Shown here in pieces: positions 2,867-63,859 of a stretch of 64,000 bases of DNA. The notes under the pieces were generated by a model. The model did not search any database. It was not told the origin of the DNA and saw only the letters and a program-made list of their open reading frames with translations. The stretch's first letter is position 1. Every line of letters starts with the position of its first letter. The stretch is from Halolamina salifodinae (GTDB lineage Archaea > Halobacteriota > Halobacteria > Halobacteriales > Haloferacaceae): assembly GCF_017874235.1 (NCBI RefSeq), contig NZ_JAGGLC010000001.1, forward strand, positions 248,001 to 312,000. The letters run 5' to 3'. The translations under genes and the position numbers were made by a program.

Positions 2867-3178
2867 GTTACGACGACGACAGCGTCTCTGTCGTTGGCAA
2901 CTTGGACCGCACAGCGCCGCACCGCGGCCACAGCCTCCCCAGCCGACTCCCTCCCTCCGGCAGAGCAAAGCTCTGCCGTGCTCTCGTTCGCTTCGTCGCT
3001 GGCGGCGCCGCCGTCGGCGCGGGGAGGAGTGGGGACTCGGTGCTGTGCCGTTAACGGGAGCGAAGCTCTCGTTTGCCAATCAGAATCGGAGATTTCTGAT
3101 GACCGGGGCTCGTGCCCGGCGCTTTGCGGCCTCTCAGTTGCCAACGATCGAGCTGCTGTTGCGGTCGCTGGTGCTGTC
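2867..3178. repeat. Dispersed intergenic repeat E1 (about 312 bp, inverted ends)
   Basis: This fills most of the 448-bp spacer between the SDR gene and arsA, where I see no gene. It is homologous, in inverted orientation, to E2 at 31143-31459. Both ends carry a short hairpin plus a TCGTTGGCAACT-like core facing inward (left 2867-2905, right 3132-3178). The blocks next to the ends match E2 closely, for example the CGGCTGGGGAGG region of E2 matches the complement of 2930-2945. The interior holds several hairpins, including a perfect 9-bp stem at 2958-2978 with an AAA loop. The 52-nt segment 3051-3102 is absent from E2. It could be a non-autonomous mobile element (MITE-like) or a structured RNA locus. 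Confidence 0.75.
3051..3102 (+). mobile_element. Hairpin-pair mini-element inserted in repeat E1
   Basis: Two hairpins form this 52-nt unit. The first has the core GAGCGAAGCTC (GAA loop). A TTTGCCAAT spacer follows, then a second imperfect stem CAGAATC/GATTTCTG with a GGA loop. Sequence on both sides aligns continuously with repeat E2 (junction at 31214-31216), and a CCG triplet is found at both edges (3048-3050 and 3103-3105), as expected for a short target duplication. Related hairpin pairs occur inside arsA, polX, the M32 gene, nrdA and the M20 gene. That it moves is inferred from the filled/empty comparison. Confidence 0.6.
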
Positions 3179-3250: not shown

Positions 3251-4405
3251 TCAGTCCAAACAGGCCGCAACCACCCGCAGCGCCGCCTCGCCGCGCACGT
3301 CGTCGGCCAACAGCGGCACCCGCTTCACCTCCCGCCCGCGGTAGAGGTCCGTCGCACGGCTCAGCGCGTCCTGCTGGACCGACCAGCGACGCTGGCAGAA
3401 CTCACAATCCTCGAGGTTCGGCGTGACCACCCAGTCGTCGGCGATGCCGCCAGACTCCGTCTCACTGGCAGACGAGCTTCGCTCGTCGCTCCCCGCGAGG
3501 TCGGCCACGTCGGCGGGGTCCTCCATCACGCGGTTCACGACGAGCGTCCCCACGGGGATGTCGAACTCTTCCAGCCGACTCACGAGGCGTTCGGACTCGA
3601 CGACGCTCATCGTCTCGGGCACCATCACCACCCGGAAGTCCGTACGGTTCGGGTCCCGCAGGAGCGTTCGCAGGCGCTCGATGCGCTCCTTGAGTTCGTC
3701 GAGATCCTGACTGCCCGCGCCCTCCTCGTCGGCGCCGCCGCCGAACACGCCCTTGATGCCGTCCATCATCCCGGAGAACTGCTGGCGGAGTTTGACCATC
3801 CGGCCGACCATCGTGTCCAGCATCTCGGGCAGCTGGAGCAGGCGCAGCGTGTGGCCCGTCGGCGCCGTGTCGACGACGACGCGGTCGAAGCGCGGGTCGT
3901 CCATGTGCTCGATCAGCTTCTGCATCGCCGCCGCCTCGTCGGCACCGGGCATCGTGCCACCCAAGAGCGACTCCATCCCCGCGCCCTCGCCGCCGAGCAT
4001 CCCCGCGAGGTCGCCGACGGGGCCCTCCTCCTGCTGGGCGGCGAAAAAGCCCTCCTCCATCGCCGCGTCGGGGTCGATTTCGACGCCCCAGAGCGGCACG
4101 TCCTCGCGGAGGCGGCTGGGGTGGGCCGGGATGTCCACGCCGAGCGTGTCCGAGAGCGAGTGGGCCGGATCCGTCGAGACGACGAGCGTCCGCGTGCCGT
4201 CGGCCGCGGAGGCCAGCGCCGTCGCCGCGGCGCAGGTGGTCTTGCCGACGCCACCTTTGCCGCCGTAGAGCACGTACTCCGGGGCGTCGATATCGGTCGG
4301 GAGAGTCGTCTCCTCGTCCAGCGTCTCAGCGGGGGGCTCGTCACGAGAACCGTCGACAGCGTCGTCCTCGACGGAGTCGACCGGCTCCACGTCGATTTCG
4401 GTCAT
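3251..4405 (-). CDS. arsA: Get3/ArsA-family ATPase
   Basis: This single-domain 384-residue P-loop ATPase has the deviant Walker A GKGGVGKTT at residues 49-57, switch motifs STDPAHSLSD and VDTAPTGHTLRLL, and a CxxC pair (C334, C337) like the zinc-binding dimer contact of Get3. A role in tail-anchored membrane protein targeting (Get3) is more likely than arsenite export, since no arsB or arsR lies nearby and the ArsA duplication is absent. It lies 51 nt downstream of the tungstate-binding gene on the same strand. Residues about 306-319 are a Ser/Glu-rich insert encoded by a hairpin pair (3452-3487), just before the CxxC. Confidence 0.9.
   Translation of the reverse strand: MTEIDVEPVDSVEDDAVDGSRDEPPAETLDEETTLPTDIDAPEYVLYGGKGGVGKTTCAAATALASAADGTRTLVVSTDPAHSLSDTLGVDIPAHPSRLREDVPLWGVEIDPDAAMEEGFFAAQQEEGPVGDLAGMLGGEGAGMESLLGGTMPGADEAAAMQKLIEHMDDPRFDRVVVDTAPTGHTLRLLQLPEMLDTMVGRMVKLRQQFSGMMDGIKGVFGGGADEEGAGSQDLDELKERIERLRTLLRDPNRTDFRVVMVPETMSVVESERLVSRLEEFDIPVGTLVVNRVMEDPADVADLAGSDERSSSASETESGGIADDWVVTPNLEDCEFCQRRWSVQQDALSRATDLYRGREVKRVPLLADDVRGEAALRVVAACLD
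3452..3487 (-). mobile_element. In-frame hairpin-pair mini-element within arsA
   Basis: In coding orientation a perfect 7-bp stem GACGAGC/GCTCGTC with loop GAA is followed by a TGCCAGTG spacer and a 4-bp stem AGAC/GTCT with loop GGA. It encodes about 12 residues (DERSSSASETES). The 11-mer GAGCGAAGCTC is identical to the copies in E1 and in the M20 gene, and the peptide closely resembles ERSSADSQTQS of the M20 copy. Confidence 0.6.
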
Positions 4406-31142: not shown

Positions 31143-31459
31143 TCAACGACAGCAACCGCAACAGCATCTCGTTCGTTGGCAAATTGTGACCGCCGGGTAC
31201 CGGGCACAAGGCCCGGCACAGCGCCGATTCCCCACCCCTCCCCCCGCGGGCGCCGACCATGGGCGCCCGCGAGGCGTCCACCGCTCAGCTGCCGGTGGTG
31301 GCGCGAAGCGGGCGCGACCTCGTGTCGCGCCTGAGCGCGAGGGGTGAGCGAGGGTTAATCCCGAGCGAACCGGCTGGGGAGGCGTGAGGCCGCGGGGTGG
31401 TCAGCGGTGCGGTCGCAAGTAGTCAAGCATCGAGATGCTGTTGCTGTCGCCGTTGGAGC
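31143..31459. repeat. Dispersed intergenic repeat E2 (about 317 bp, inverted ends)
   Basis: This is homologous to E1 (2867-3178) in inverted orientation and fills most of the 464-bp spacer 31069-31532, where I see no gene. End arms at 31143-31187 and 31415-31459 are mutually inverted, sharing the CAACAGCATCTCG core. The interior holds a 10-bp stem CGCGGGCGCC/GGCGCCCGCG (31236-31263 region) and an 8-bp stem GGCGCGAC/GTCGCGCC (31311-31331). The stretch ACCGGGCACAAGGCCCGG (31199-31216) runs directly into the block where E1 carries its 52-nt insertion, making E2 the uninterrupted form. Confidence 0.75.
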
Positions 31460-31532: not shown

Positions 31533-33110
31533 TTACAGCCCGTACAGATCCGTGAACTTCTCCTCCACGTAGTCGAGGAAGTAGTCCGCCGTCAGCGGCT
31601 CACCCGTCGCCTCCTCGATCAGGTCCTCGGACTTGTACGCCCGCCCGTGGCTGTGGACGTTCTCGTTCATCCACTCGCGCATCGGGTCGAAGTTCCCGTT
31701 CCGAATCTTCCCGTCGACGTCCGAGATGTCGTCGCGCATCGCCGCGTCCAGCTGAGCCGCGAGCACGCTCCCGATGGTGTAGCCCTGGAACCCCGCGAAG
31801 CGGGAGGACCAGTGGATGTCCTGCAGGCAGCCCTCACCCACGCCGTCGGGCGTGACGCCGAGGTACTCCTCCATCTTCTCGTTCCAGAGTTCCGGGATCT
31901 CGTCGACCTCGATCTCGCCGGCGACGAACGCGCTGTCGATCTCACACCGGAGGATGATGTGCAGGTGGTAGGTGAGTTCGTCCGCCTCCACCCGGATGCG
32001 GTTGTTGGGGTAGATGCGGTTGACCGCCTCGTAGGCCTCCTGCACCGTCAGGTCGTCGACGTCGCCAGAAGTCTTCGACTTCTGGCTGGCTAACGAATCG
32101 CTCCGCGATTCGTGATCCTCGTCGAGGTGCTCCTTGACCTCGGAGAGGAAAAAGTCCCAGAACGGCTTCGTGCGGCCGACGTGGTTCTCCCAGAAGCGGC
32201 TCTGGGACTCGTGGACGCCCGAGGAGAGCGATTCGCCCAGCGGCGTGCCGTAGTGTTCCTGGGGCAGGCCGAGCATGTAGCTCGCGTGCCCGTACTCGTG
32301 GATCGTCGCCGTCAGCGCGTCCATCGGGTTCTCGGGCTTGTACCGCGTCGTCACGCGGGCGTCGAACTGATTGCCCGAGGTGAAGGGGTGTGCCGAGATG
32401 TCGAGTCGGCCGTGGTCGCGGTCGTAGCCGATAGCGTCCAGTGCAGCCTCAGAAAGCGCGCGCTGGTCCTCCTCGGGGTACTCCTGCCCTTCGTAGGGCG
32501 AGGCGAGGTCGTCGCCGTGCTCCTTGATTTCCTCGATCAGCGGGACCAGTTCCTCCTTCAGGCGGTCGAAAATCTCCTGCGTGCGCTCCCGGGAGATGTA
32601 CGGCAGGCCGTCCTCGTACAGCACGTCGTAGGGCGACTGGTCCGGGCTGATGTGGTTCGCGCGCTCGATGGAGAGGTCACGGAGCTTCTCCAGTCGGGGG
32701 GCGAACAGTTCGAAGTCGTCCTCGGCTTTGGCCTGCTGCCAGATCTCCTGGTTCTCCGTGGTGGTCTCGGAGAGTTCCTGCACCAGATCGCCGGGCACGT
32801 CGGCGGTCCGGTCGTAGTTGCGCCGGATCTCGCGGACGTTGGCCTGCTGGCGCCAGTCGAGGTCGTCGACGACGTCCTCGGTTGCGGTGAGTGCTGCCTC
32901 GTACTCGTCGTCGGTCAGCAGGTCGTGGCTGACCGCCGAGAGCGCCGAGAGCTGTTTGGCGCGGGCCGGCGTGGCGCCCTCGGGCATGGTCACCTGCTGG
33001 TCCCAGCCGAGCACGCCGCTGGCGTCACCGATGTAGGAGATGCGTCGCGTCTGTTCGATGAGGTCCCGGTACGGCTCCGGGGCGTCCTCTGGAGGTTCTT
33101 CGATAGACAC
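31533..33110 (-). CDS. M32-family carboxypeptidase (Taq type)
   Basis: The 525-residue zinc metallocarboxypeptidase removes C-terminal residues from peptides. HEYGHA (H271, E272, H275) is the HEXXH zinc site, and the family blocks ISYIGDASGVLGWDQQVTMPEGA, DISAHPFTSG, GVHESQSRFWEN and YHLHIILRCEID are present. The length is close to typical (about 500), with residues 333-349 (ESRSDSLASQKSKTSG) forming an extra, poorly conserved loop encoded by a hairpin pair. Cytoplasmic, no signal peptide. Repeat E2 lies just downstream of the stop. Confidence 0.94.
   Translation of the reverse strand: MSIEEPPEDAPEPYRDLIEQTRRISYIGDASGVLGWDQQVTMPEGATPARAKQLSALSAVSHDLLTDDEYEAALTATEDVVDDLDWRQQANVREIRRNYDRTADVPGDLVQELSETTTENQEIWQQAKAEDDFELFAPRLEKLRDLSIERANHISPDQSPYDVLYEDGLPYISRERTQEIFDRLKEELVPLIEEIKEHGDDLASPYEGQEYPEEDQRALSEAALDAIGYDRDHGRLDISAHPFTSGNQFDARVTTRYKPENPMDALTATIHEYGHASYMLGLPQEHYGTPLGESLSSGVHESQSRFWENHVGRTKPFWDFFLSEVKEHLDEDHESRSDSLASQKSKTSGDVDDLTVQEAYEAVNRIYPNNRIRVEADELTYHLHIILRCEIDSAFVAGEIEVDEIPELWNEKMEEYLGVTPDGVGEGCLQDIHWSSRFAGFQGYTIGSVLAAQLDAAMRDDISDVDGKIRNGNFDPMREWMNENVHSHGRAYKSEDLIEEATGEPLTADYFLDYVEEKFTDLYGL
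32064..32113 (-). mobile_element. In-frame hairpin-pair mini-element within the M32 gene
   Basis: Two perfect stems are visible: GCCAGAAGTC/GACTTCTGGC (10 bp, 3-nt loop, 32064-32086) and ACGAATCGC/GCGATTCGT (9 bp, 3-nt loop, 32093-32113), separated by only 6 nt. In coding orientation the loops are GGA then GAA, with a TTAGCCAGC junction similar to TTTGCCAAT of the E1 copy. It encodes the extra loop ESRSDSLASQKSKTSG. Confidence 0.6.
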
Positions 33111-62365: not shown

Positions 62366-63859
62366 TCAGCGGTCGGTCAGTTCGTACGGATCGGCGTCGT
62401 CGGGCAGCGGCGAGTCGTACTCGCGGTCCCCCTTCCGCTCCTCGAACTCCGCGGTCGCGTCCGCCAACAGTTCTTCGTCGGAAAGCAGGTCGTAGAGCGA
62501 CCCGGCGACGACTTTCCCCGCGAAGAGCATCCCCGCGGTGCCGAGGTCCTTCCCGCCGGCGACGGCCTGCCACGAGTGCAGCGGCGTCCCCGCGGGCCAG
62601 TTCGCGACTCGGAACCGCCCCAGCGGGACGTTCCACGACACGTCGCCCGAGTCCGTGGAGTAGGAACCAGTCTGGCCCTCGTCGGGGGCGTCGTCAGACT
62701 GCGTCTGACTGTCCGCCGAGCTTCGCTCGGCGACATCGACCGGGTCGGTGAACATCGCCGACTCGGCAGCCTCGTCGCGACGTTCGGGTGGGGCGGCCGC
62801 GTAGGAGGGATCGTCGAGGGTCGCCTTCAGGTCCGCCGCGAACGCCTCCTGTTCGTCGGTCAGCGGGAACTCCGCAGCGTCCATGTTCGCCCGGATTGAG
62901 TCCGCCAGCGCGTGGTTTGGGAGGACGCTGTACATTCCGGTGGTCTGGGTCACGTCCACGTCGGTGCCGGACATCAGCGCCGCCCCCTCGGCGGCGTCGC
63001 GCACGCGCTCGGAGACGGCCTCGACCGCGTCGCGGTCGGGCGCGCGGACCATCACCTCCATCGCCGCCTCCTCGGGGACGACGTTGGCGGCCTGCCCGCC
63101 CTCGGTGACGACGTAGTGGATCCGGACTGGGTCGGGGACGTGTTCGCGCATGTACTCGAGTCCGGTACCGAGCAGTTGCACGCCGTCGAGCGCCGAGCGG
63201 CCGGCTTCCGGCGCCGCCGCAGCGTGGGCGCTCTCACCCGAGAACGCAACGTCGAAGGAGTCCACTGCGAGACAGGAGCCCTTATTGGGGGCGTTGAGCC
63301 AGTCGGGGTGCCACGAGACGAGGGCGTCGACAGCGCGGGACTCCGTCCCGTTGGCTCCTGCCTCGTCGGAGGTGGGAACGTCCTCGAACACGCCCTCCTG
63401 GATCATGTACACCTTGCCCGCGCCGACTTCCTCGGCGGGCGTGCCGAAGTAGACGACCGATCCCTCCACATCACCGCGCTCGATGGCGCGCTTGACCGCG
63501 ACGGCGCCCGCGAGGCTGCCGACGCCGAACAGATTGTGGCCACAGCCGTGCCCCGGCGCGCCCTCCTCGACGGGTTCGCGCTCGGCTTTCGCGGCCTGAC
63601 TCATCCCCGGCAGCGCGTCGAACTCCCCCATGGTTCCGACGACAGGGTCCTCGTCGCCGTAGCGTGCGACGAACGCGGTGTCGATGCCGGCGACGCCGGA
63701 CTCTACTTCGAACCCTTCCTCGCGGAGCGCCTCCTGTAGCAGCGCCGCGGAGTCGTGTTCCTGTAGCGCGACCTCCGGGTCCTCCCAGATCTGCGTCGAG
63801 AGGTCGGTGAACCAGTCGCGGTCGGCCTCGATGTCATCGAACAGCGCCTGTTTGGTCAC
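62366..63859 (-). CDS. M20-family amidohydrolase/peptidase
   Basis: The 497-residue protein resembles AbgB-type M20 amidohydrolases: GTMGEFDALPGMSQAAKAER, APGHGCGHNLFGVGSLAGAVAVKRAIE (metal-binding His), GTPAEEVGAGKVYMIQEGVF (Glu-Glu), SGESAHAAAAPEAGRSALDGVQLL. It probably hydrolyses N-acyl or p-aminobenzoyl-type amides. Two inserts are encoded by hairpin pairs: one near residues 164-175 and one near residues 377-389. Upstream of the start is a 36-bp tandem repeat. Confidence 0.9.
   Translation of the reverse strand: MTKQALFDDIEADRDWFTDLSTQIWEDPEVALQEHDSAALLQEALREEGFEVESGVAGIDTAFVARYGDEDPVVGTMGEFDALPGMSQAAKAEREPVEEGAPGHGCGHNLFGVGSLAGAVAVKRAIERGDVEGSVVYFGTPAEEVGAGKVYMIQEGVFEDVPTSDEAGANGTESRAVDALVSWHPDWLNAPNKGSCLAVDSFDVAFSGESAHAAAAPEAGRSALDGVQLLGTGLEYMREHVPDPVRIHYVVTEGGQAANVVPEEAAMEVMVRAPDRDAVEAVSERVRDAAEGAALMSGTDVDVTQTTGMYSVLPNHALADSIRANMDAAEFPLTDEQEAFAADLKATLDDPSYAAAPPERRDEAAESAMFTDPVDVAERSSADSQTQSDDAPDEGQTGSYSTDSGDVSWNVPLGRFRVANWPAGTPLHSWQAVAGGKDLGTAGMLFAGKVVAGSLYDLLSDEELLADATAEFEERKGDREYDSPLPDDADPYELTDR
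62694..62732 (-). mobile_element. In-frame hairpin-pair mini-element (copy a) in the M20 gene
   Basis: In coding orientation an 8-bp stem CGCCGAGC/GCTCGGCG with loop GAA (62714-62732) is followed by a short spacer and a 6-bp stem TCAGAC/GTCTGA with loop GCA (62694-62708). The encoded ERSSADSQTQS resembles the arsA insert, and GAGCGAAGCTC is identical in both genes and in repeat E1. Confidence 0.6.
63336..63370 (-). mobile_element. Degenerate in-frame hairpin-pair element (copy b) in the M20 gene
   Basis: One 6-bp stem CGGGAC/GTCCCG with loop TCC (plus strand, 63336-63350) remains intact. It is followed by TTGGCTCCTG, matching the GTTGGCT-type spacer of other copies, and by a second arm region that no longer forms a clear stem. 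The encoded SDEAGANGTESR resembles SDERSSSASETESG of the arsA insert. It appears to be an older, decayed copy. Confidence 0.45.

Follow-up and report, generated by a model that had tools for sequence, protein, structure and literature searches.

The 64,000 nt of Halolamina salifodinae DNA analysed here (contig NZ_JAGGLC010000001.1, positions 248,001 to 312,000; hereafter the window) contain three copies of a short double hairpin, the module, one in the long intergenic repeat E1 and two within genes (table 1). We estimate a probability of about 85% that the module is a non-autonomous mobile element of 45–57 nt, found across the haloarchaea, which inserts at sites close to CGRC^GYCG (^ marks the junction), enters genes in frame and is moved in trans.

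Module copies in genes and their target site

An alignment of 32 copies defines the module as GTY, a hairpin of 9–10 bp, the spacer YGCCA, a hairpin of 10 bp and GAC, 45–57 nt in all, the stem length of 9–10 bp referring to the long form. At least 26 copies lie within genes of the H. salifodinae genome: 25 sites that were examined, with two tandem pairs counted once each, and the third copy of the window. Every one of these copies is in the sense orientation and lies between codons (P 3e-8 for sense at the 25 sites; the probabilities given here assume that sites are independent, and clear genes were favoured by the coding score with which the sites were picked). The inserts add 15–19 amino acids to enzymes that have close relatives without them. 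Carriers named by Pfam are shikimate dehydrogenase (AroE), a relative of dihydrodipicolinate synthase (DapA), NIF3, phosphoglucomutase, a universal stress protein, GNAT, FtsJ and M32 carboxypeptidase; the remaining carrier genes were named from sequence only.

At 15 gene sites, including the third window copy, orthologues are exactly empty in one to six congeners, with insert sizes of 45, 51, 57 or 108 nt compared with 0 nt. Because these congeneric orthologues are exactly empty, insertion rather than loss is the parsimonious reading. M32 and AroE proteins in the other haloarchaea searched are module-free, bar short unrelated length variation. The reading frames show that modules in genes are read through as a predicted hydrophilic peptide, of the type V(D/A/P)ES..LSSANQNAERSGD in the longer copies. 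In the predicted structure of the M32 carboxypeptidase, the insert (residues about 332–350) coincides with a low-confidence segment (333–348) between two helices and would, as expected, fit a tolerated surface loop.

The 25 gene sites share a sharp target. Upstream of the junction, C is found at −4 in 24 sites, G at −3 in 22 and C at −1 in 21, while T never occurs at −2; downstream, positions +1 to +4 hold G in 23 sites, Y in 22, C in 23 and G in 22, respectively. GRC^GYC is present at 12 of the 25 sites but at only 1.9% of the 6884 codon boundaries that these genes contain (P 1e-14). These counts show, by comparison of sites, a palindromic target close to CGRC^GYCG with precise insertion. A C precedes GTY in 21 of 25 sites and a G follows GAC in 23 of 25, so that the ends read CGTY and, in reverse complement, CGTC; this outer C/G already belongs to the empty target, and the tag is often CGTT. 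A target duplication of 3 bp is rejected, since each gene site that has empty orthologues differs from them by the length of the module and no more. The C|G shared at the junction is the sole possible duplication, and a 2-bp CG duplication may occur.

In the carrier genes 82% of GRC^GYC sequences fall between codons, so codon phase would mostly follow from the choice of target. A palindromic target cannot dictate orientation, yet all 25 copies are sense, an indication either that the antisense peptide is selected against or that insertion is polar. Selection is suggested by the antisense reading itself, which is basic and hydrophobic.

Covariation supports the two hairpins: 98.2% of stem cells are paired, compared with 86.5% in shuffles, and 81 cells carry double changes, compared with 19, with no shuffle equally high. 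The first stem pairs are R-Y then A-T in helix 2 and A-T then C-G in helix 3, the loops are 3–4 nt (3 nt in the folds), and the GCCA of the spacer is invariant in the alignment, with GGCA in some coding copies. The ends GTY and GAC are able to pair, closing a three-way junction. As single strands the window copies fold better than shuffles, with z-scores of −3.1 for the E1 copy and −6.9 for the second one. A search with a covariance model (R1), as the preliminary description of this DNA had proposed, matched approximately 110 distinct places in the genome, three of them in the window, and 58 double hairpins were picked up by a structural scan of 222 kb. A weak match of 21 bits at window positions 3446–3489, in the gene adjoining E1, is perhaps a shorter relative.

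Compensatory changes that keep the stem pairs, together with many intergenic copies, could also reflect a selected functional element (a regulatory RNA, terminator or protein tag) copied between repeats without transposition, for instance by gene conversion or template switching. This seems very unlikely to us, since nothing in the window matched Rfam, near E1 not even at a permissive threshold, the carriers are unrelated enzymes whose congeneric orthologues are module-free, the target motif is sharp and congeners differ widely in copy number, with 6 in one and more than 70 in another.

Host repeats with zero to three modules

E1 and its homologue E2 belong to a family of intergenic repeats of about 300 nt, whose matches form about 45 clusters in the genome. 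The family is present in all six Halolamina congeners, and three of the seven genomes hold many more pieces of it than the others; pieces and modules are both numerous in G000, G003 and G005 when compared with G001, G002 and G006.

It had been noted from E1 and E2 that the former holds an extra double hairpin with loops GAA and GGA, a TGCCA spacer and CCG on either side, and alignment of the two repeats bears this out. The segment was originally placed at 3051–3102 (52 nt); the double hairpin is indeed there, but the exact unit is 3050–3103, GTTAAC...GATGAC, of 54 nt. The flanking CCG triplets had been read as a 3-bp target duplication, a claim that does not survive comparison with other copies. 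In empty host repeats the terminal hairpin follows immediately after ctgygc, whereas occupied ones read GCC[GTY...GAC]CGGG, so that E1 differs from the empty form by the module plus one additional C. The CCG...CCG pattern is a product of this extra C, common to occupied host repeats, and is peculiar to the E1 site; at the independent gene sites there is no 3-bp repeat.

Among the copies listed, the position occupied in E1 is empty in at least 13 (E2 and 12 others), while the 13 occupied copies hold whole modules, singly in four cases, doubly in seven and triply in two, in a constant order; some of the multi-module counts rest on the structural scan of 222 kb. That scan also found modules at other positions of host repeats, in both orientations. 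E1 and E2 therefore belong to different host-repeat subfamilies, with 0, 1, 2 or 3 modules, and are not the orthologous filled and empty pair that they were first taken for. Because these subfamilies hold whole modules in fixed order, the E1 module is probably no fresh lone insertion, and the simplest reading is of a few insertions followed by the spread of subfamilies.

The same series of zero to three modules in fixed order allows copy number to change without insertion, and the E1/E2 difference might then reflect slippage or deletion in an ancestral tandem hairpin array, with the module a part of the repeat and not mobile. We consider this improbable, and for the module family as a whole it is already largely refuted: slippage cannot place modules in genes, and at least 26 of these, 15 with exactly empty congeners, carry the module on its own, as do other repeat families. 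The 15 empty sites, two of which concern copies in the window, support the original proposal that a miniature palindromic element had inserted; they also make its alternative, loss from E2 by deletion, unlikely as a general explanation.

The E1/E2-type repeats are one of several repeat families entered by the module. A second family ('GGGTGGGACTGAAAGGGGC ... GACGCAAGCACCGCAG') is often module-bearing in several genera (loci L280, L274, L277, L287, L256 and L385). A different double hairpin, GTGCGGGCGACC...GGCCAGCGAGAGC..., with a GGCCA spacer, was also seen in host repeats (G000:C1:3-54, C1:660388-660439, C1:831979-832030 and C6:180295-180346).

Table 1. Modules, carrier genes and host repeats in the window.
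Feature	Position	Strand	Details
Host intergenic repeat E1	2867..3178	+	long, imperfectly palindromic; one module inside
Double-hairpin module in E1, GTTAACGGGAGCGAAGCTCTCGTTTGCCAATCAGAATCGGAGATTTCTGATGAC	3050..3103	+	62.5 bits, E 1e-12 with model R1; fold z −3.1
Host intergenic repeat E2	31143..31459	-	module position empty; junction about 31214-31216
M32 carboxypeptidase gene with second module	31533..33110	-	PF02074, E 2.5e-151
Second module, DHESRSDSLASQKSKTSGD	32061..32117	-	57 nt, in frame in M32 carboxypeptidase gene; 67.4 bits; empty in 6/6 congeners
M20-type peptidase gene with third module	62366..63859	-	PF07687, E 8e-9
Third, compact module, VAERSSADSQTQSDD	62690..62734	-	45 nt, in frame; 33.4 bits; 0 nt in 6/6 congeners

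Distribution and candidate enzymes

The module was present in 54 of the 79 genomes searched. When named genomes were scanned for the pattern, nearly all of the matches listed were in haloarchaea, from many genera. Copy number is at least 71 in G000, 59 in G005 and 47 in G003, and 6–11 in four congeners. Outside Halolamina, copies are mostly intergenic, with some in IS605 tnpB genes, at the C-terminus of VapB or beside tnpA. Independent sense, in-frame copies occur in Halolamina congeners and in other genera, with a few weak calls in other frames; weak gene calls (short or intergenic frames) were excluded from the counts, and the gene caller passes over the short VapB gene.

In several genera, tnpB-like genes of IS605/IS1341 type hold a module internally or at their 3' end, some antisense yet open, at L302, L306, L272, L314, L249, L310, L309, L279, L247, L294, L275, L312 and L288. 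In Halolamina and Halobellus, the C-terminus of a VapB-like antitoxin holds a module that overlaps the vapC start (L318 4584-4640, L254 1565-1621 and L305 1119-1175). On a plasmid of Halomicrobium urmianum (L337 1501-1557), a module precedes an IS200/IS605 tnpA by about 110 bp, in its apparent left end. Viral spread was considered and set aside, with one match only among 2.9 million viral contigs.

An enzyme supplied in trans would mobilise the module, the moving form probably being either a single strand in its folded state or a circle whose ends meet as GAC|GTY. Tandem modules join as GAC|GTY; such joints would arise because the module ends fit the target, and this would explain arrays of two or three. 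The first choice of enzyme, a tentative one, would be a Y1/HUH transposase of IS200 type, with another recombinase as a second candidate. Y1 as an obligate partner is rejected, as copy number does not follow it.

Several observations weigh against the reading as an element mobilised in trans. The Y1 transposase is broken in G003, the congener with 47 copies, and was not found in G001, while an IS110-type transposase fails as a partner because a search of the genus for PF02371 found none. Some copies in tnpB genes of other genera are antisense, and the extra C of occupied E1-type host repeats is missing from gene sites. DapA is filled in G000 and G003, and FtsJ in G000 and G006, each being empty in the other congener; these shared sites imply site reuse, gene exchange or loss, and at the FtsJ locus the G006 module is the same as that in H. 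pelagica CGMCC 1.10329. Finally, mobility is deduced from the comparison of sequences.

Relation to known palindromic elements

The module works like the Rickettsia palindromic elements (RPEs) and the dimers of CGTC-tagged repetitive extragenic palindromes (REPs), and resembles SMR-A of Haloquadratum walsbyi; some defining features of these elements are found in it and others are absent. CGTC-tagged REPs are short hairpins with a CGTC-like unpaired end that form pairs in opposite orientation and have no dedicated transposase (Di Nocera et al. 2013, PMC3733652); RPE-4 and RPE-6 are among them (PMC3733652). Their dimers commonly join unlike hairpin partners, are mostly intergenic with some in genes and carry a CCA-like tail (PMC3733652), all of which recalls the module. 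The module has the unpaired CGTC outer end, and its YGCCA spacer holds the 3-nt CCA-type tail. The dimers have no associated transposase gene; for the module, Y1 does not track copy number, but one copy lies beside a tnpA. CGTC-tagged REPs are, however, reported from five bacterial phyla only (PMC3733652), whereas the module is haloarchaeal, with the pair as its usual unit, a fixed 5-nt spacer, loops of 3–4 nt, as a rule no A-T at the first two positions of the stem, and a defined palindromic target.

RPEs likewise lie in frame in many unrelated genes and are read as extra peptide, and their insertion into genes whose orthologues are empty has its counterpart at the 15 gene sites described above. 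The hosts are bacterial in one case and archaeal in the other, and the likeness is one of behaviour. In contrast with RPEs, all confident gene copies of the module in the genome are sense-oriented and fall between codons, and its target is defined by exact empty sites.

In the accessible part of its account, SMR-A is transposase-less, makes no target duplication and lies inside IS605 elements and palindrome-associated transposable elements (PATEs), its mobilisation being unsolved (PMC3119063). The module, compared by description, is alike in being haloarchaeal, lacking a transposase and a duplication, and occurring within other mobile repeats. It is possible, if doubtful, that the module is a relative of SMR-A moved by IS605 machinery, which would refine rather than oppose the reading as an element mobilised in trans. 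Inverted ends, the absence of target duplication and the targeting of near-terminal IS605 palindromes (PMC3119063, as far as accessible) favour such a relation, as do the modules near tnpA in Halomicrobium urmianum and in or at the end of tnpB elsewhere. On the other hand, the SMR-A unit is given there as about 110 bp, a length that two modules in tandem approach but one of 45–57 nt does not, and its three families are mutually dissimilar in sequence. Its described targets are IS605/PATE palindromes, whereas most module copies lie in genes or other repeats; in-frame coding inserts are absent from that part of the account (PMC3119063), and Y1 does not track module copy number.

REPINs, mobilised by RAYT/Y1, also comprise two inverted hairpins as one non-autonomous unit, but they carry a GTAG tag that the module lacks, and no Y1 transposase tracks its copy number. 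A miniature inverted-repeat transposable element (MITE) would show a target duplication of more than 2 bp, which the module does not have. Rather tentatively, the module may represent a distinct, haloarchaea-wide class of transposase-less elements, in which joined GAC|GTY ends mirror the palindromic CGRC^GYCG, recombination takes an undescribed route and the target preference, by putting most gene hits between codons, feeds new loop peptides into proteins.

Searches of the open-access literature turned up no haloarchaeal genes described as carrying in-frame palindromic inserts. Rickettsia is the main source of known inserts of this sort, and bacteria that of CGTC REPs, with CGTC-type movement unsolved. 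The haloarchaeal module offers many exact empty sites, a sharp palindromic target, large differences in copy number and hosts that can be grown, properties that make both the movement of the element and the role of the inserted peptides directly testable.
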